This document shows, in pieces, positions 27,100-37,591 of a stretch of 64,000 nt of DNA. The DNA lies in assembly GCF_014836665.1 (NCBI RefSeq), contig NZ_JACSQJ010000001.1, positions 746,387 to 810,386 of the forward strand, in the 5' to 3' direction. The notes beneath the pieces were generated by a model. The model was not told where the DNA came from and did no database searches. It saw only the letters and a list, made by a program, of their open reading frames with translations. The stretch is from Luteimonas colneyensis. Its GTDB lineage: Bacteria; Pseudomonadota; Gammaproteobacteria; Xanthomonadales; Xanthomonadaceae. A program made the translations under genes and the position numbers. The number at the start of each line of letters is the position of its first letter. The first letter of the stretch is position 1.

Positions 27100-27176
27100 G
27101 CGCCCGTAGCTCAACCGGATAGAGCACCGGCCTTCTAAGCCGGTGGTTGCAGGTTCGAGTCCTGCCGGGCGCGCCA
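27100..27176 (+). tRNA. tRNA-Arg (anticodon TCT), likely phage integration target
   Basis: 77 nt with CCA. Acceptor stem GCGCCCG/CGGGCGC, anticodon loop CTTCTAA, T-loop GGTTCGAGTCC. The host gene run ends here; a broken tyrosine integrase begins about 75 bp downstream and phage genes fill the rest of the window. The 3' half of this tRNA is therefore the most likely attachment site, but the matching repeat at the far end is outside the window. Confidence 0.95.
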
Positions 27177-27465: not shown

Positions 27466-27639
27466 AGCGACAGCGGCGCGGTCCTGATCCAGAAGGGCGG
27501 GAAGCCAGACCGGATCGTGAACCTCGAGAAAAGCCGCGGCGCCGTGATCGGCGAGCGTTGGCAGTACTACCTCCGCGACAAGCAGGTGAACTTCAAAGTT
27601 CACGACGGCCGCGTCTCCCGGGTCGACGAGATCCGCTGA
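27457..27639 (+). CDS. Small unassigned protein, possibly a fragment
   Basis: 60 aa if started at the GTG at 27457, in the same frame as the integrase remnant. The translation (SGAVLIQKGGKPDRIVNLEK ... YYLRDKQVNFKVHDGRVSRV) looks like real protein with ordinary amino-acid use, unlike shadow frames. No ribosome-binding site is seen at the GTG, so it may be the C-terminal remainder of another phage gene fused to the integrase remnant by a deletion. Confidence 0.4.
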   Translation: MAESDSGAVLIQKGGKPDRIVNLEKSRGAVIGERWQYYLRDKQVNFKVHDGRVSRVDEIR

Positions 27640-27762
27640 CGTCTCCGGCGTGCTGCGCCTCCCGGCACCGCTCCTTGAAGGCGCCACGAGGTAGGCGCAC
27701 TCTCAGGCGGCAGGCCAGGCGGCGATGGCCTGCATTCGAAAACGCCGCAGGGGGATCAACCA

Positions 27763-28201: not shown

Positions 28202-28287
28202 GGGAGCAATCCTAGGCCCTCGGCGCTCACGAACTGAGACGGTGACCCGGCGTAACCTCGGTGTCCCGCCCGCCCCTGTTCGCCGCC

Positions 28288-29214
28288 ATGTGCTACTCCG
28301 CTCTGATCGAGGCCGACTACCGGCGCTATGTGCGCCAGTTCGGTGCGAGCGTCTCGCTCGAGGACTTCACGGCTCAGGCCATGGCCGATCCCGGCAAGGG
28401 CAAGCGCCCGAAGTGGCCGAAGGGCATGCGCGACGCCGCGGCCGCGGATCCGTCGCCGGAGGCGGCGCAGCTGCGTGACGCGGTGCGCTTCTGGATCGCG
28501 CAGGATATCGCCGAGGCCGAGCGCGAGCTGGATAAGCAGCGGCGGCGGGTTGCCGACGGCCAGGCCGCCCTTGCCGATAAGCTCACGAAGAAGGCCGCCG
28601 ACGACGTGCGAATCGGCAGCAACAAGATCGAGCAACTCGAGGCGCGGCTTGTCGACCTCAGGCGCAAGGAGCCCAAGCCCCGCGACTCGAGGATCTACCC
28701 GGGCTACTACGCGCCCGTGCTGGTCTGGCAGGACGGCGCTCCTGTGGTACTGCCGATGCGCTACCAGTGCCGGCCTGCCGGCAAGCCCGAGTTCTATGAC
28801 CGCAAGTTCCCGGGCACCTACAACGCCCGCCGTGACAATCTCCAGGGGTTCTGGAAAAGCCAGTTCGGCAAGACCCACGGCGTGGTCCTCGCGCGCGCCT
28901 TCTACGAGCACGTGGAGCGCGAGGGCAAGGACGTGGTTGTGGAGTTCAGGCCGCAGGACCACAGCGAGATGCTTGTGGCCTGCCTGTGGTCGAGCTGGAT
29001 CGGCCCGGACGGCGAGGAGTTGCTCTCGTTCGCCGCGATCACAGACGATCCGCCGCTCGAGGTGTCCGCAGCCGGCCACGACCGGTGCATCGTCCCGATC
29101 CGCAGGGAGAACCTGGACCTCTGGCTGATTCCGGACACCAGCTCCGTCCAGGACCTATATCGGGTGTTGGATGACAGGGAACGCCCTTATTACGAGCATC
29201 GCGAAGCAGCTTGA
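28288..29214 (+). CDS. SRAP (HMCES/YedK-like) SOS response-associated peptidase, divergent form
   Basis: 308 aa. The ATG at 28288 is chosen over a GTG at 28261 because it puts Cys at position 2 (MCYSALIE), the residue SRAP proteins expose after Met removal to cross-link abasic sites in single-stranded DNA. The other active-site residues are visible: Asn in TYNARRDNL, Glu in ARAFYEHVE and His in AGHDRCIVPI. An insertion of about 60 charged residues (AEAERELDKQRRRVADGQAA onward) forms a likely coiled coil not found in YedK. It lies in the phage accessory region with no clear operon partner on its left. A second, N-terminally truncated copy lies 2.5 kb downstream. Confidence 0.85.
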   Translation: MCYSALIEADYRRYVRQFGASVSLEDFTAQAMADPGKGKRPKWPKGMRDAAAADPSPEAAQLRDAVRFWIAQDIAEAERELDKQRRRVADGQAALADKLTKKAADDVRIGSNKIEQLEARLVDLRRKEPKPRDSRIYPGYYAPVLVWQDGAPVVLPMRYQCRPAGKPEFYDRKFPGTYNARRDNLQGFWKSQFGKTHGVVLARAFYEHVEREGKDVVVEFRPQDHSEMLVACLWSSWIGPDGEELLSFAAITDDPPLEVSAAGHDRCIVPIRRENLDLWLIPDTSSVQDLYRVLDDRERPYYEHREAA

Positions 29215-29292
29215 GACTGCCGCTGACTGGCCATGACGTGAGCAGTCGGCAGCGCAACTCACAGGCACCTGTCTCACACGCCAATGATACGG

Positions 29293-29308
29293 CCACAATA
29301 TGTTGTGG
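29293..29308. promoter_or_regulatory. Inverted repeat upstream of the TIGR04255-like cassette
   Basis: CCACAA-TATG-TTGTGG, perfect 6-bp arms with a 4-nt spacer, in the 262-bp gene-less leader (29215-29476) before the cassette. An operator is possible; nothing else recognisable is seen in this leader. Confidence 0.35.
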
Positions 29309-29476
29309 TCGCGCACTCAACGGCGTCCTATATGTGGGCACGAATCCGACGCTTGTTGACAGTCTCATAGGCCGAGATAAAGTCGCTCGACTACCGTCTT
29401 TGAGGCTCATCCGCGGAACTATCGCGGTATGGGTCCAGACATCCTGAAAAATCACACTTGAGGCCCGCCGACTGCA

Positions 29477-30250
29477 ATGAGCGTTCAGTACGGACACTTG
29501 ATGCGTGGCGCTCCACTACGGCTGACCCATCCTCCAATTGTAGAAGCCACCTGTGAGGTGCGGTTCGCACAACCAGAGGGGGTGCCAGCCGACATGCTTC
29601 CTGGGTTGTTGTACCCGAATCTTCGCGCCCGCTATCCGGAGATGCAGCGCCAGCCCGTTGCAGATGTGCCAAGCCCGATCAGAGCAGCTGATCCCAACCT
29701 GCAATATGTTCCTTGGATTCGATTTGTCGGTGAGAAGGAGAGCATTGGGTTGGGAGATCGGGTCGCATCCGTGAGTGTGCTGTCCGAATACCAAAACTGG
29801 GAAACTTTCCGAGAACGCATTTTTGAGCTATGGGCTGCTCTGGAAGAAGTAGGTGCGCTGAACAAGGTGGAGCGCGTGTCCATTAAATTCATCAACATTA
29901 TTGATGACCCTGCCACTCCGCTGCATGAATTGCTGCGCCTGAAAGTTGAACTGGGTGATACCCAATTCCAAGACCAGCGCTTGCACTTAGTAATGCAAAC
30001 GGCACGACCGAACTTTCTCGAGATCTTGCAGGTTGTCACTCACGCACAAGTTAATTCCCAGATTAGCCCGAGTTCCGCACCTCGGCCAGGCACGGTGCTC
30101 GACGTTGACGTATTGAGTAATTGCGATCTTTCCGACTTTGTGACGCGCGGTGGCCTCCTCATTGACGAGGCACACGAAATTGCAAAGCAAGTTTTTCTAG
30201 GCGCTGTGACTGATAAGGCACTAAAAAGCTGGGGGGCTCTTTATGCATAA
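29477..30250 (+). CDS. TIGR04255-like family protein
   Basis: 257 aa. The layout matches the sporadic TIGR04255 family: an N-terminal HPPIVEATCEVRF segment, a central KVERVSIKFINIID segment and a C-terminal end at WGALY. The biochemical role of this family is unknown; members are scattered among bacteria and often found in islands. Base composition is clearly lower in G+C than the phage genes around it. It overlaps the next gene by 8 bp, so the three cassette genes form an operon. A second ATG at 29501 is also possible; neither has a strong ribosome-binding site. Confidence 0.75.
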   Translation: MSVQYGHLMRGAPLRLTHPPIVEATCEVRFAQPEGVPADMLPGLLYPNLRARYPEMQRQPVADVPSPIRAADPNLQYVPWIRFVGEKESIGLGDRVASVSVLSEYQNWETFRERIFELWAALEEVGALNKVERVSIKFINIIDDPATPLHELLRLKVELGDTQFQDQRLHLVMQTARPNFLEILQVVTHAQVNSQISPSSAPRPGTVLDVDVLSNCDLSDFVTRGGLLIDEAHEIAKQVFLGAVTDKALKSWGALYA

Positions 30251-30542
30251 TCTAGGGACAAACATCGTTCGTGGCGGTACCTTAGCCGCTCTTGGCGCGA
30301 TGTGGACAGCCACTACGCCATTTGCACCACCTACTTACAACGGAGAGCCGGAGCACGCTTATTTGTCGCCGCTGCGCAGCGTGTCCTCTTCGTCAGTCAC
30401 GATTCGGCAGGTGTCTGCACCCCGCCCTGGCGATGCCGCCATGTTCGCCGCAACTTTGGTTGCCTTGGCCGCAATTGAGAATCCGTTGCCGGCTGACGTG
30501 CAACAGATCATCTCGCGGGATCTGTTCGATTATCTGGACTAG
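30243..30542 (+). CDS. Unassigned 99-aa protein of the low-GC cassette
   Basis: 99 aa, starting inside the end of the TIGR04255-like gene. Sequence is Ala/Ser/Pro-rich with one mildly hydrophobic stretch near the N-terminus (GGTLAALGAMW) and another near residue 70 (MFAATLVALAAIENPLP). No motif is recognised. Its tight overlap with the gene before and 5-bp gap to the gene after argue that it works with them. Confidence 0.6.
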   Translation: MHNLGTNIVRGGTLAALGAMWTATTPFAPPTYNGEPEHAYLSPLRSVSSSSVTIRQVSAPRPGDAAMFAATLVALAAIENPLPADVQQIISRDLFDYLD

Positions 30543-30547
30543 TCGTT

Positions 30548-31156
30548 GTGCCATTGACGATTGAACACGCTCGCGCTTTGTTCGCGCCTGAGCTGGCAGA
30601 AGACGACTTAAAGGAAGTAGTCCGGCAGATCCAAAAGCTTCAGGAAGGCCGCGGCTTCCTCGCGGCGCATCACGAGATCCCCCGTCTGCAGGGAGACATT
30701 TGGTCAGGGCTTCCTATTGTTCGCATTAGCGCTGATGGCCATGCGGCCGCACGGCCTGCGCGCGCGATGCTCTTATCAAACACGTGCGACATAGCCGAAG
30801 AGAACGCGCGCGACTACCGGGCACATGTGACCTATGTTCCAGTAGTTCGCATCTCGGCCTTCGAGCGCATGCTCACGAATGGTGGGCTGCCTCAAGATCG
30901 CATTAACAGCATCGTCCAAAGCATTCGACTCAATGAAAGTACACGCGTCTTCTTCGTTGAAGCAGGTGCGGGCTTGGAGGAGGACTGTCTCGCGATGCTG
31001 GATCAAGCATTCTCAGCAAGCGCGGATATCCTCAATGCCGGCCACTGCGAACGCCTTGCTGTGCTGTCCGATCGAGGCCATTGGGCCTTGGTCCTGAAAA
31101 TGTCCGTGCATTTTTGCCGCCTCCGTGAGGGCGTAGTACGCGCGGCTGCTCAGTAA
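30548..31156 (+). CDS. Unassigned 202-aa protein of the low-GC cassette
   Basis: 202 aa from a GTG start. It has the segment RAMLLSNTCDIAEENARDYR near residue 73, with the sequence LLSNTCDI followed by YVPVVRI; I recall such a CD(I) motif from uncharacterised island proteins but cannot name a domain. No membrane segment. It ends the three-gene cassette; the sequence returns to high G+C shortly after. Function unknown. Confidence 0.65.
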   Translation: MPLTIEHARALFAPELAEDDLKEVVRQIQKLQEGRGFLAAHHEIPRLQGDIWSGLPIVRISADGHAAARPARAMLLSNTCDIAEENARDYRAHVTYVPVVRISAFERMLTNGGLPQDRINSIVQSIRLNESTRVFFVEAGAGLEEDCLAMLDQAFSASADILNAGHCERLAVLSDRGHWALVLKMSVHFCRLREGVVRAAAQ

Positions 31157-31556: not shown

Positions 31557-31671
31557 GTCGGTTCTCGTTGGTGGCCAGCCCCCACGATTCCCCGCTGCCG
31601 TCTCTGATCCTGCGACGGCACCTAGGTCGGGCACCAGCCCAAACCTGGATCCCGGGGGCCGCCGGCGTTGG

Positions 31672-31704
31672 TCACACCTCTAGTATCACGGGAACCACCG
31701 GCGC
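31672..31704 (-). pseudogene. Leftover 3' end of a phage tail gene
   Basis: On the minus strand the last ten codons read APVVPVILEV then TGA. The tail-tip gene at 33996-34217 ends APPVVPVTLEV. The stretch ACGGGAACCACCGGCG is shared at DNA level. The rest of this gene copy has been replaced by the truncated SRAP gene. Confidence 0.6.
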
Positions 31705-32404
31705 CGAGGCCGAGCGCGAGCTGGACAAGCAGCAGCGGCGTGTTGCGGAAGGCGAGGCCTCGCTCGCGGTGAGGCTCACGAAGAAAGCCACCGACGACGT
31801 GCGCATCGGCACGAACAAGGTGGCCCAGCTCGAGGACCGGCTGGCCAACCTGCGGCGCAAGGACCCGAAGCCGCGCGACGGCAGGATCTATCCCGGCTAC
31901 TACGCGCCCGTGATGATGTGGCAGGACGGCGGACCTGTGGTGCTGCCGATGCGCTACCAGTGCCGGCCGGCCGGCAAGCCCGAGTTCTACGACCGCAAGT
32001 TCCCTGGCACCTACAACGCCCGCCGGGACAACCTCGAGGGCTTCTGGCGCGGCCTGTTCGGCAAGACCCACGGGGTGGTGCTGGCGCGCGCCTTCTACGA
32101 GCACGTGGAGCGCGACGGCCAGGACACCGTGCTGGAGTTCCGCCCTCAGGACGGCAGCGAGATGCTGGTCGCCTGCCTGTGGTCGAGCTGGATCGGCAAG
32201 GACGGCGAGGAGCTGCTGTCCTTCGCGGCCATCACCGACGAGCCGCCGCCGGAGGTCGCCGCCGCCGGACACGATCGATGCATCATCCCCATCCGGGCCG
32301 AGAACCTCGAGGCCTGGCTCAATCCGGTCGCAGACCCGAAGGCGATCTACGCGATCCTCGACGATCGCGAACGCCCCTACTACGAACACCGCGAGGCAGC
32401 GTGA
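31702..32404 (+). pseudogene. SRAP gene copy 2, N-terminally truncated
   Basis: The frame from 31702 to 32404 is closely similar to the intact SRAP gene from its coiled-coil segment (AEAERELDK) to its end (PYYEHREAA). It keeps the Asn (TYNARRDNL), Glu (ARAFYEHVE) and His (AGHDRCIIPI) residues but has lost about 74 N-terminal residues including the catalytic Cys2. The frame stays open to 31568 but upstream codons are unrelated and run through the tail-gene leftover. It ends by overlapping the next gene (TGATG). Codons 3' of the break remain intact, so decay may be recent or the 3' part may matter only for coupling. Confidence 0.75.
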
Positions 32405-33170: not shown

Positions 33171-33941
33171 TCAGCCTGCAGCGTCCAGTTGCTGTGCGCT
33201 ATGACTGGCATGCTTTCGGAGCAGGTACATGCGGTTGACGAGCCCGCCGCCGAACATGGCCATATCCATTTCCCGAACTATTTCCAGCCCGCCGCACTGA
33301 ATGGCACGCTCGTAGCTACTGCGGGCGCGATATCGGGCGACATAGCCGCTACGGTACGCCCGGTGCATATCGCTTCCGGTTGAAAGCGTATCGATCATTA
33401 AAAGGGACCCACTTGGCTTCAAGAGCCGGCGAAGGAGGGACAAGGACTGGTCAAAAGTTACCGGGTCCACGATACAACTGGTGACTCCCATGCAAGTAAC
33501 CAGATCGGCCATGCCGGAGGAGGCAATTTCTGCCACAGTCCCCACGCTGAACTCCACGTTCCCTGCCGAACCAGCCGCTCTGGCGCGGCTTATCAGTGAG
33601 GGCGAGATGTCGAATCCCTGGACCAACTCTGCATATTCTGCAATCACGCGCGAATAGCGCCCGTCGCCGCAGCCGACGTCAATCGCTAGCCCGATCTCCC
33701 CTAGTGGTCCGAGAATCTCTCTGAGTGCGCGTTCCCGCTCAGCGTAAAATTCAGGAGGAGCGTGATAGGTGTCCCGTGCACGCTTCCAATAGGCATCGCC
33801 GGACCTTTGCAGGGCGCGAGACTGCCTGGTGAGCAGCAACAGGAAGTTCCCAAATTTTATCCCCACACCGCCCCCTAAGAACGAAGCCGCTTCCGCCCAT
33901 GGCTCGGTGCAGACTAACAGCGGCGGCGTAGCCGCGTACAT
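33171..33941 (-). CDS. Class I SAM-dependent methyltransferase (phage moron)
   Basis: 256 aa. Motif I reads AIDVGCGDGRYSRVI near residue 90, with VQGFDISPSLISRAR after it and LLRRLLKPSGSLLMIDTL as the post-III segment. It resembles small-molecule or sugar methyltransferases rather than DNA methylases (no DPPY-type motif). G+C is lower than in the tail genes next to it. It is leftward, just after the last tail gene, a position typical of lysogenic-conversion genes; a role in modifying a surface molecule is only a guess. Confidence 0.75.
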   Translation of the reverse strand: MYAATPPLLVCTEPWAEAASFLGGGVGIKFGNFLLLLTRQSRALQRSGDAYWKRARDTYHAPPEFYAERERALREILGPLGEIGLAIDVGCGDGRYSRVIAEYAELVQGFDISPSLISRARAAGSAGNVEFSVGTVAEIASSGMADLVTCMGVTSCIVDPVTFDQSLSLLRRLLKPSGSLLMIDTLSTGSDMHRAYRSGYVARYRARSSYERAIQCGGLEIVREMDMAMFGGGLVNRMYLLRKHASHSAQQLDAAG

Positions 33942-36058: not shown

Positions 36059-37591
36059 TCATGCGAATCTCGGGGCCGTCTTCACGACAAGGTTTCCCCA
36101 CCTGGAGGACGGCGGTTTAACTACGCCGTCGAATGAGAGCATGATGTACACGTCGCCAACAGGCACAACAGAAGGCCAAGGCTGGGTTGTTGGTCTTCCG
36201 TCATGAGCACCATCCAGCTTGCCGATGTAGTTGCCCGCTGCATCGTGGATATTCATGCTGGTTTCGCCACCGCTCAGATACCACCATGCGCCGCCCGCCT
36301 TCAGGGCAGAGTTTCCCTCGTACCTCTGCCGGGTCGGATCGGACCAGACCAATGTCCACGTGACCCTATCTACCGATTCGGCGACCGCGCTATAGAACGG
36401 CGATCCAGAGAAGTCGTGCCTCTCAGTGATCGTGTACGCGCACAGGTAGCGGCTGCCATCAAAAACGATATGCGTGTCATATGCCCCGTACTCCGACGTG
36501 AGCATCCCGGGAAGCACCATCGGGACGGCCGTCCCAATGTTATGGATGCCACCATCAAGAATCCGCTTGCTCGTCGAGTACCAAATGCTGGTGATGGTGC
36601 CACCAGGCCGCGCACGCTCGCCCCAGGTGCCCGCGTAGATGTCGAAACTATCTTCCGAGTTCATAACCACGTGAGCCGCGACATCACGTTCGAACACGCC
36701 GCCTCGAGTTCCTTGGAAGCTGCTGATCTGTGTAGCAGCGTAGGTGACCAAGTCAAGTTCCCATATCGAAAGGAACCCGTTGCTCGTCACATCGAACGTG
36801 TGCGCAGAGAATACAAGCTTGTTGCCCCGAACAACTGGGGAGCCGTCCGGATGCGTGACGGGGCGAATATCTCGCATGCCACAAGTGCCGAGCGCGCCGA
36901 CCGTAAAGCGCGAGAAGCTCCAAGTAGACACGGGGGTACTTCGAACCCCGAAGCATGGCTTCATTGTCGCCAGAACTGCCGGAGACTGGATGTTGAACCG
37001 GGACAGAATGCCGTAGGCCGATACGGCCACAACCCAGCCAGCTCCAATATCGTAATACACAGAAACGCTATCGCTGTTCATACCAATGCCGATGCGCACA
37101 CTTGATCTGGAGCCGACCACGGTCGTCAGGTTCACCGAACCCACAAATGTATTGACATCGTTCTTTTTAATGAACAGCTGCAGCAAGCCGTTATCACGGT
37201 TCCATGCCGCCAGCACATGATTGGTATTGTCGATGACCCACCCAACGACGGGGGCGTTGTAACCAGACGTTACCGTGCTGATTTCATTGACATCTATTGA
37301 AATAAACTGAAGTGGCGCCTCTGGCACCGGGCCTTGGGTGTATTGGTTGATTGTTCCACTGATCTGTACCCCTCCAGGGACCAATGTGGTCGTTCCCGAT
37401 TGCTGCTGCGGCACCAGTCCGGCGAGAGAAGAAAAGGCGTTGTCGACCAGATGCGCGCGCCCGTCCGTCGGCTGGATATCGAAAGTCGTTTTCGTAGCTG
37501 CGACGGAGTATTGCTGCTGCTCCGGGACAATTTCGACCACAGGAGCGACGCCCCTGAAACCTGCAGCCGCCGCGAACATGCCCAGCATCAT
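36059..37591 (-). CDS. Receptor-binding/tail fiber candidate with beta-propeller-like sequence
   Basis: 510 aa, clearly lower in G+C than the flanking tail genes, a sign of recent exchange. Beta-strand-rich with repeated W-containing blades in the C-terminal half (DTHIVFDGSRYLCAYT, YSAVAESVDRVTWTLVW, GAWWYLSGGE), as in five-bladed GH43/68-like or sialidase-like propellers. Host receptor binding or glycan recognition is inferred from composition, position and fold pattern. It overlaps the preceding gene by ATGA; 114 bp without a gene follow it. Confidence 0.6.
   Translation of the reverse strand: MMLGMFAAAAGFRGVAPVVEIVPEQQQYSVAATKTTFDIQPTDGRAHLVDNAFSSLAGLVPQQQSGTTTLVPGGVQISGTINQYTQGPVPEAPLQFISIDVNEISTVTSGYNAPVVGWVIDNTNHVLAAWNRDNGLLQLFIKKNDVNTFVGSVNLTTVVGSRSSVRIGIGMNSDSVSVYYDIGAGWVVAVSAYGILSRFNIQSPAVLATMKPCFGVRSTPVSTWSFSRFTVGALGTCGMRDIRPVTHPDGSPVVRGNKLVFSAHTFDVTSNGFLSIWELDLVTYAATQISSFQGTRGGVFERDVAAHVVMNSEDSFDIYAGTWGERARPGGTITSIWYSTSKRILDGGIHNIGTAVPMVLPGMLTSEYGAYDTHIVFDGSRYLCAYTITERHDFSGSPFYSAVAESVDRVTWTLVWSDPTRQRYEGNSALKAGGAWWYLSGGETSMNIHDAAGNYIGKLDGAHDGRPTTQPWPSVVPVGDVYIMLSFDGVVKPPSSRWGNLVVKTAPRFA

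Follow-up and report, generated by a model that had tools for sequence, protein, structure and literature searches.

A prophage-borne TIGR04255 cassette with a predicted MazF/CcdB-fold protein, a candidate tripartite toxin-antitoxin-like operon in Luteimonas colneyensis

Introduction

The closest described counterparts of the three-gene cassette treated here, which lies in a prophage of Luteimonas colneyensis, are toxin-antitoxin systems of several kinds. TAC systems use a chaperone to protect the antitoxin, as set out in the available part of PMC5105189, and CmdTAC is reported as an anti-phage system whose chaperone, on sensing capsid protein, is set free and thereby releases the toxin (PMC11618068, available part). 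Panacea (PanAT), a promiscuous antitoxin network, pairs one constant component with many toxin domains (PMC8832971, available part). The cassette occupies positions 29477-31156 of the window, the whole stretch of 64,000 nucleotides (nt) of contig NZ_JACSQJ010000001.1 that was analysed, and features gene 1, which encodes a TIGR04255 protein, gene 2, a small gene in the antitoxin position, and gene 3, which encodes a protein with a predicted MazF/CcdB fold (Table 1). On balance it is probably a prophage-borne tripartite toxin-antitoxin-like operon, in which gene 3 would be the toxin, gene 2 the antitoxin and gene 1 their partner. A preliminary description of the window had reported an operon of three overlapping or nearly overlapping genes of 257, 99 and 202 amino acids (aa), and the coordinates bear this out: genes 1 and 2 overlap by 8 nt and a gap of 5 nt separates gene 2 from gene 3. 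The three-component system that it had proposed is supported, and the operon structure and the co-occurrence of the genes are confirmed. The cassette is widespread and apparently undescribed.

The cassette resembles MazEF/PemIK and CcdAB in the toxin fold of gene 3, in the small gene that lies directly upstream of the toxin gene and often overlaps it, and in the conserved acidic C-terminal tail of the small protein. The gene arrangement of type II toxin-antitoxin systems, a small gene beside a toxin gene in one operon, is found here as an arrangement only. Unlike these systems, gene 3 lies outside PF02452, features a helical N-terminal extension and has its own invariant residues, gene 2 has no recognisable DNA-binding domain, and a third gene is added. 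The likeness to TAC systems, CmdTAC included, consists of the three genes and of a proposed antitoxin that would be kept in place by a partner, however, gene 1 does not resemble SecB, most members have their hydrophobic segment at the N-terminus and not in a C-terminal ChAD, and the toxin gene comes last. The CmdT effector is an ADP-ribosyltransferase, whereas the proposed effector of the cassette has a predicted MazF fold. As in Panacea, a constant component is combined with varied toxins, but the constant part there is an antitoxin domain, whereas here gene 1 stays the same and gene 2 varies along with the toxin. The other TIGR04255 cassettes share the gene 1 family and the three-gene order, and their gene 2 (WDGY-like or helix-turn-helix-like) and gene 3 (unnamed families) come from other families.

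PADLOC 2.0.0 gave no match for any of the three proteins up to E 10, and a literature name search, outside subscription papers and bioRxiv, found no paper naming TIGR04255, phrog_4575 or phrog_5464; neither search linked these proteins to defence. By the tests applied, the cassette is outside PF02452, the TAC systems and the PADLOC systems, and within TIGR04255 and phrog_4575. The profile and structure-prediction comparisons that had been recommended for the three proteins assigned gene 1 to TIGR04255 and gene 3 to phrog_4575 and the MazF/CcdB fold; gene 2 had no profile match.

Occurrence of the cassette

A single-sequence search of genome contigs with gene 3 found no relative. Alignment-based scans with gene 3 found 79 genome loci and 45 viral loci, 124 in all, from Pseudomonadota, Bacteroidota, Verrucomicrobiota, Ignavibacteria, Bacilli and other groups; these are not 124 independent events, as several are near-identical prophages (e.g. 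L102-L110 and L134, by locus number). The loci were fetched via gene 3 alone, and in 106 of the 124 a TIGR04255 gene lies directly upstream on the same strand. An open reading frame (ORF) of at least 70 aa stands between the two genes in 104 of these 106 loci, the others being L067 and L088, and in relatives the small gene immediately before gene 3 overlaps it or ends a few nt away. TIGR04255 is present in 30 of 398 genomes of the phylum (35 of 369 of the class), so the genes co-occur more often than expected by chance, which answers the question of co-occurrence raised in the preliminary description.

Gene 1 is not upstream of gene 3 in 18 of the 124 loci (L046, L054, L057, L063, L072, L080, L082-L087, L089, L091, L092, L122, L123 and L133); some of them lie at contig ends or are fragments. 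A replacement ORF of 209-308 aa stands where gene 1 would be in L046, L072, L133, L083, L084, L086, L087, L089, L091, L092 and L009, the last of which lies outside the 124 loci, and these replacement genes show no profile likeness to TIGR04255. In the last eight of these loci the different first gene, of 244-308 aa, precedes the gene 2 - gene 3 pair, and the eight first genes resemble one another by eye; no gene 2 of 90 aa is listed for L092. In Bacilli and some other groups, too, genes 2 and 3 are preceded by a different first gene.

The family of gene 3, phrog_4575, was found in 8 of the 398 phylum genomes, where six copies adjoin TIGR04255, one (L009) has another first gene and one (L013) is cut by a contig end. 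The cassette is also found in Pseudomonas phage VW-6S (Pseudomonas sivasensis), near a CI repressor and an integrase, in the Peduoviridae phage Dobby, beside the portal gene, and on a Phocaeicola plasmid. Of 72,556 plasmid records, a tblastn search with gene 3 of the window matched a single one at E 1e-5. Phage integrase is the commonest neighbouring Pfam family, with 7 of 105 neighbour ORFs against 2 each for the next families shown, in a survey that covered 57 of the 79 genome loci with Pfam only, showed 25 of 136 families and had no control set.

The gene 3 protein

Gene 3 matches phrog_4575 with an E-value of 1.9e-33 over positions 23-207 of 209. It has no Pfam match up to E 10, PF02452 (PemK/MazF) included, and PF02452 is not among the 24 families that any of 80 aligned gene 3 proteins matches up to E 1. 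The alignment used for the fold contains the protein of the window and 79 of the 82 gene 3 proteins of 185-245 aa that remained below 85% similarity. The resulting model has a mean predicted local distance difference test (pLDDT) value of 91.3 and features the predicted toxin fold at about residues 43-193, preceded by an additional helical extension of residues 1-42. Comparison of the model by VIA gave S. aureus MazF with a Z of 11.8, 109 aligned residues, a root-mean-square deviation of 2.4 and 15% identity. In total 124 of 997 chains reached a Z of at least 8, and the top 50 entries shown are all MazF, MazF-like or CcdB toxins, some of which we take to be MazF homologues. The best Foldseek match is MazF-mt1 (E 2.2e-3). 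The preliminary description had seen no sign of a toxin, and this part of it does not hold, given the predicted fold of gene 3 and the MazF or PIN proteins that occupy the same slot in other cassettes.

The LLSNTCDI motif that had been pointed out in gene 3 is a conserved feature, with L76, S77, N78, C80 and D81 identical in all 80 aligned proteins; a QGD motif and two arginines near the C-terminus are equally invariant (Table 1). The MazF statement rests on fold and not on sequence, because the comparison with a PemK profile of 25 proteins (24 fetched proteins and that of locus L143) is weak. In the weak register of this comparison the GD of gene 3 aligns on GD, and the SN of LSNTCD falls on the QN of the QND of MazF. 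The gene 3 protein seems, from the model, to have a MazF fold that lacks the usual catalytic pair, and its active site, if any, would be a different one. Searched by sequence against solved structures, the two alignments yielded only chance-like matches (best E 0.26 and 0.75). In PADLOC the 80 aligned proteins matched four families, each through one protein only (best E 0.0028). The ratio of non-synonymous to synonymous substitution rates (dN/dS) of gene 3 is below 0.3 in 11 of 13 usable values from 17 hand-picked close pairs, the set used for all three genes.

TIGR04255 cassettes with other effectors

In the loci that were read, a TIGR04255 gene without phrog_4575 is usually the first of three genes, of which the second and third vary. 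L143 features TIGR04255, a 95-aa gene and a MazF gene (Pfam PemK_toxin, E 1.1e-18), L173 features TIGR04255, a 116-aa gene and a PIN gene (Pfam 1.4e-8), and L184 features TIGR04255, a gene of about 100-112 aa as read by eye and a PIN gene (Pfam 2.4e-6, scanned with a corrected start). In at least three cases, therefore, the place after TIGR04255 and a small gene belongs to a toxin. The gene 1 proteins of L143, L173 and L184 are 27, 28 and 29% identical to that of the window, and 17 other aligned TIGR04255 proteins without phrog_4575 are 13-21% identical to it.

A FastTree phylogeny of gene 1, which omits L142, L145, L153, L154, L157, L158 and L164, places the MazF and PIN cassettes within a clade of 48 members (support 0.905) that contains 43 phrog_4575 cassettes, 2 with PIN, 1 with MazF, 1 that is HEPN-like by eye, and L189, whose gene 3 is cut. 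An IQ-TREE phylogeny of 69 of the 124 sequences (57 ingroup and 12 outgroup) groups L143, L184 and L173 (91.3/96); 11 distant outgroup members join the window branch (88.7/63). Support is weak for a group that unites these three with the window and L065 (80.5/43). The two trees agree that the gene 1 proteins of L143, L173 and L184 belong together; their exact place relative to the window, and with it the direction and nesting of the toxin exchange, is not settled.

A mechanical walk along ORF chains found a second downstream ORF in 57 chains; L146, L154 and L158 have no credible cassette, and L175 has a short third ORF only. Among 46 third-gene proteins scanned against PADLOC there were three weak matches (best E 9.4e-5), and 10 were scanned against Pfam. 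A HEPN likeness of L159, L188 and a gene of Sulfurimonas phage SNW-1 and an NlpC/P60 likeness of L139 and L140 were noted by eye; those tested, L139 excepted, gave no supporting family match. In viral locus L263 gene 1 is followed by genes of 120 aa and 188 aa, the latter with the variant motif LTHECDVDPANER.

Two further types of cassette recur. In one (L138, L148, L152, L163, L165, L175, L177, L178 and L191-L195) the second protein, after TIGR04255, has a WDGY-like stretch, and the third, in most cases of 130-170 aa, often contains 'RKDG..KP.AF'; the third protein of L148, the one tested, has no Pfam or NCBIfam name. In the other (L141, L144, L149, L151, L167, L171, L172, L179, L182, L183 and L185) the second gene has a helix-turn-helix-like stretch by eye and the third, of about 190-280 aa, the pattern 'W.QG ... 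SH.CD'. A group of 13 third-gene proteins with 'QG...SxxCD' resembles the gene 3 motifs only locally, over 42 columns (hhalign E 0.0024), and does not resemble PemK (E 0.45). This local likeness to the QGD and LSNxCD motifs hints at a wider group. On plasmid pTB1 of Thermus brockianus (L227) a TIGR04255 gene adjoins a CopG-VapC pair a few kilobases (kb) from cas6, and in Sulfurimonas phage SNW-1 (L226, 3372-4822) TIGR04255, a 111-aa gene and a 129-aa gene follow one another near a CII gene; the last of these is HEPN-like by eye and has no NCBIfam match.

The gene 2 protein

Scans of gene 2 against Pfam, NCBIfam, PADLOC and PHROGs found no family up to E 10, and nine relatives are 9-25% identical to the protein of the window. 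The conserved part is the C-terminal tail. The 92 distinct gene 2 tails, that of the window included, have the consensus F-x-x-L-x-x-x-Q-E-P-L-G-x-E-F-E-x-V-L-x-x-N-L-W-D-L-Y, in which the best positions include L (74 of 92), E (58), N (56), D (57), L (76) and Y (54). The tail of the window, NPLPADVQQIISRDLFDYLD, diverges from this consensus. On average the last 35 residues carry a net charge of -4.05 over 93 rows, in which the protein of the window is counted twice.

The N-terminal hydrophobicity of gene 2, taken over the first 60 aa, has a mean of 1.48 compared with 0.94 in shuffled sequences, and the strongest hydrophobic stretch begins within the first 50 aa in 87 of the 93 rows. A hydrophobic stretch of at least 1.4 occurs in 63 of 92 gene 2 proteins of phrog_4575 cassettes, compared with 11 of 51 from other TIGR04255 cassettes, and the Bacilli versions have no hydrophobic N-terminus by eye. 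The dN/dS of gene 2 is below 0.3 in 12 of 14 usable values, the exceptions, 0.48 and 0.67, being close pairs with dS values of 0.09 and 0.17. Judged from these ratios, gene 2 is under purifying selection in the relatives.

The gene 1 protein

The preliminary description had assigned gene 1 to the TIGR04255 family, and the full NCBIfam model agrees (E 2.5e-41, 142.1 bits with a cut-off of 30, positions 1-252 of 252); the protein also matches phrog_5464 (E 7.4e-35). Pfam and PADLOC give no match up to E 10. The predicted structure, made from an alignment of 72 proteins and that of the window, has a pLDDT of 92.9 and a predicted template modelling score of 0.89 and features a curved antiparallel sheet with helices. 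Fold searches gave no decisive match (best Z 8.0). Foldseek returned the AdoMetDC prozyme (E 1e-4, TM about 0.3) and TBP, and VIA returned guanidino kinases, AdoMetDC and TBP at Z values of up to 8.0; both results were taken as a common arrangement and kinship was rejected. No kinship to SecB was found either: comparison by hhalign with 24 SecB proteins gave a probability of 0.2% and Pfam no match up to E 10. For gene 1, 13 of 15 usable dN/dS values fall below 0.3.

Interpretation

The scheme that we infer, which extends to the toxic action of gene 3, its neutralisation, the part played by gene 1, the trigger and the benefit against phages, would run as follows. Gene 3 would be the effector, most likely a growth-stopping RNase or else a relative with another target. 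Gene 2 would be the antitoxin, its conserved acidic C-terminal tail lying in the groove of the toxin; MazE tails sit in the toxin groove. Gene 1 would be a chaperone-like or sensor-like protein, not of the SecB kind, that keeps gene 2 in its toxin-neutralising state and probably grips it through the N-terminal hydrophobic part found in most gene 2 proteins. Phage infection or stress may occupy gene 1, upon which gene 2 would be released and lost and gene 3 would act. By analogy with TAC and CmdTAC it is likely that gene 1 holds the antitoxin as the chaperone does there. The toxin and antitoxin roles are supported by the predicted toxin fold, the small gene with its acidic tail and the exchange of gene 3 for MazF and PIN, and the presence of the gene 2 - gene 3 pair behind an unrelated first gene of similar size in some loci also favours this reading. 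An anti-phage function is plausible from the prophage setting, and the defence or exclusion role suggested in the preliminary description is compatible with the data. That TIGR04255 as a whole marks a class of tripartite toxin-antitoxin defence, with many toxins (the MazF fold of phrog_4575 with a rebuilt active site, MazF, PIN and others) and a constant protein, unrelated to SecB by sequence, that would guard the antitoxin, sense infection and, once occupied by a phage product, release the toxin, is possible but rather doubtful.

Several observations weigh against a toxin-antitoxin operon of this kind. For gene 3, Foldseek alone gives nothing at E 0.001 or better, and MazF toxins stand in only 3 of its first 50 rows (1, 6 and 8, the latter two a MazF other than MazF-mt1), so that the clear ranking is that of the second aligner. 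The protein is outside the PemK Pfam family, and hhalign against the PemK proteins is weak (E 0.015, probability 2.9%). The Arg and Thr of MazF, which we take to be its catalytic residues, fall in that weak register on A71 and V100, positions at which neither Arg nor Thr is conserved, and RNase activity is uncertain because of this. Profile scans up to E 10 recognise neither an antitoxin domain nor a DNA-binding domain in gene 2; a DNA-binding domain is usual in type II antitoxins and not universal. Many gene 2 N-termini resemble signal peptides by eye, and an exported protein fits these better than a cytosolic antitoxin does. The N-terminal stretch of gene 2 in the window is itself weak (0.98), its strongest stretch being at residues 62-78, and the hydrophobic N-terminus cannot be a general TIGR04255 handle, because so few gene 2 proteins of other TIGR04255 cassettes have it. 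Gene 1 matches neither SecB (hhalign) nor another chaperone family (Pfam up to E 10), and the analogy with TAC is further limited by the N-terminal and not universal hydrophobic part and by the different gene order.

Another explanation is a superinfection-exclusion or lysogenic-conversion operon without a toxin, in which an exported or membrane-bound gene 2 protein would act at the envelope and genes 1 and 3 would be helpers or regulators. The prophage location agrees with it, as do the N-terminal hydrophobic stretch of most gene 2 proteins and the Ala-rich, cleavage-site-like sequence that often follows the stretch by eye. The predicted fold of gene 3, however, is that of cytosolic toxins, and MazF and PIN take its slot in other TIGR04255 cassettes. 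Moreover, what is conserved in gene 2 is the C-terminal tail beside the toxin gene and not the hydrophobic part, which the Bacilli versions, by eye, do without while keeping the gene 2 - gene 3 pair, and the gene 2 of the window is not among the hydrophobic examples; an exclusion or conversion operon is thus quite unlikely. A plain addiction module, which would serve the post-segregational stability of the phage or prophage without defence and have gene 1 as an extra regulator of the operon, is unlikely as well. It would account for a toxin-antitoxin-like anatomy on phages, prophages and one plasmid and for the sporadic distribution of phrog_4575 among the phylum genomes, but the third gene, kept in 106 of the 124 loci, exceeds the needs of a plain addiction pair, and the tblastn search found a single plasmid record.

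Gene 3 may also be read as a MazF-fold enzyme or binder that is not a toxin, such as a nucleic-acid reader or modifier that uses the Cys-Asp-His-Arg set in an unknown pathway. Its invariant residues are active-site-like and the canonical catalytic residues of MazF are not conserved in the weak register, both of which suit this idea; a known toxin family nevertheless fills the slot in three TIGR04255 cassettes, and, integrase aside, none of the 25 neighbour families shown exceeds 2 members among the 105 ORFs. A survey from 2009 describes most toxin families, the Kid/CcdB/PemK/MazF superfamily included, as seemingly without a non-toxin role (PMC2701414, available part), which favours the toxin reading of gene 3. 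A non-toxin role for gene 3 is very unlikely. Taken as a whole, the earlier interpretation stands for the family, the operon, the position, the co-occurrence and the three components, and falls for the absence of a toxin sign.

Prophage setting and base composition

The prophage is real, as established by phage structural genes and an exact 46-base-pair (bp) attachment repeat. The phage genes at 34-57 kb include a lambda-type portal, a gpA terminase, a head protease, a tape measure and tail proteins. The exact repeat at 27131-27176 and 69090-69135 defines a prophage of about 42 kb in a tRNA-Arg gene, and an ORF at 67781-68992, just ahead of the right copy, reads by eye as a tyrosine integrase. 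The preliminary description had placed the cassette at an end of the prophage, and it does lie 2.3 kb inward from the left end, with the integrase-like ORF at the opposite end. Near both ends there is a 184-nt repeat, 83% identical between 27467-27650 and 67607-67790 (the latter outside the window, L280), whose copies code for a similar C-terminal protein segment.

Table 1. Features of the cassette and its flanks (positions in the window)
Feature	Coordinates	Strand	Remarks
Gene 1	29477..30250	+	257 aa, ATG start; TIGR04255 family; third component
Gene 2	30243..30542	+	99 aa, ATG start; small protein, antitoxin position
Gene 2 C-terminal tail, residues 80-99	30480..30539	+	Proposed toxin-binding segment; divergent version of the conserved acidic tail
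Gene 3	30548..31156	+	202 aa, GTG start; MazF/CcdB-fold protein (predicted), proposed toxin
Q48-G49-D50 of gene 3	30689..30697	+	Invariant in 80/80 aligned proteins
L76-S77-N78-x-C80-D81 of gene 3 (LLSNTCDI motif)	30773..30790	+	Invariant in 80/80 aligned proteins
C-terminal helix and end of gene 3	31109..31141	+	H188 in 73/80; R191 and R198 in 80/80
Promoter-like TTGACA-16-TAAAGT	29356..29383	+	Lies 93 nt before gene 1; weak, as chance alone would give 1.0 such site in the scanned stretch
attL core	27131..27176	+	3' end of tRNA-Arg; 46-bp exact copy at 69090-69135, outside the window
Left SRAP gene	28261..29214	+	Pfam SRAP 4e-18; flank, outside the cassette
Right SRAP-like ORF	31568..32404	+	Pfam SRAP 2.3e-18; flank, outside the cassette

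The two SRAP copies between which the cassette had been placed do flank it and share 81% DNA identity over 706 nt; the right ORF, however, is homologous to the left copy only from 31702 on and is without its N-terminal part. The Met-Cys start, which we take to be catalytic in SRAP, falls in the missing part. The pair looks like the scar of an insertion or recombination in a SRAP gene. A DNA search covered 51 further genomes of the genus, with no more than five candidate places scored in each, and among its listed matches none lies inside the cassette and many lie in SRAP genes; related genomes show SRAP matches without a listed cassette match. This genome has one TIGR04255 gene.

The lower G+C noted in the preliminary description is present: the cassette has a G+C of 0.555 (0.53, 0.57 and 0.58 for genes 1, 2 and 3) compared with 0.699 over the whole window; the host DNA at 1-26 kb has 0.72 and the prophage at 34-54 kb about 0.70, and the lowest five of 3116 sliding windows of 1680 nt all start at 29261-29361. 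The dip is local and not unique, because a second stretch of low G+C (0.56) is found at 36.5-37.5 kb. A minus-strand ORF of 510 aa lies in that stretch amid the phage tail genes (36059-37591), has no match in Pfam or PHROGs and may code for a fibre or a receptor-binding protein. An S-adenosylmethionine-dependent methyltransferase gene (Pfam Methyltransf_25, 2.5e-13), whose G+C is also lowered, lies at 33171-33941 on the minus strand, between the cassette and the tail genes.

Significance

TIGR04255 cassettes are spread over Pseudomonadota, Bacteroidota and other phyla and are found on phages, prophages and chromosomes. If the proposed tripartite operon is correct, TIGR04255, a family that so far has a number only, would gain a testable role as the third component, distinct from SecB, that modular toxin-antitoxin-like cassettes have in common. 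The gene 3 protein would then be an effector whose MazF fold has an active site of another kind, and the cassette would represent a new way for a third protein to gate a toxin.

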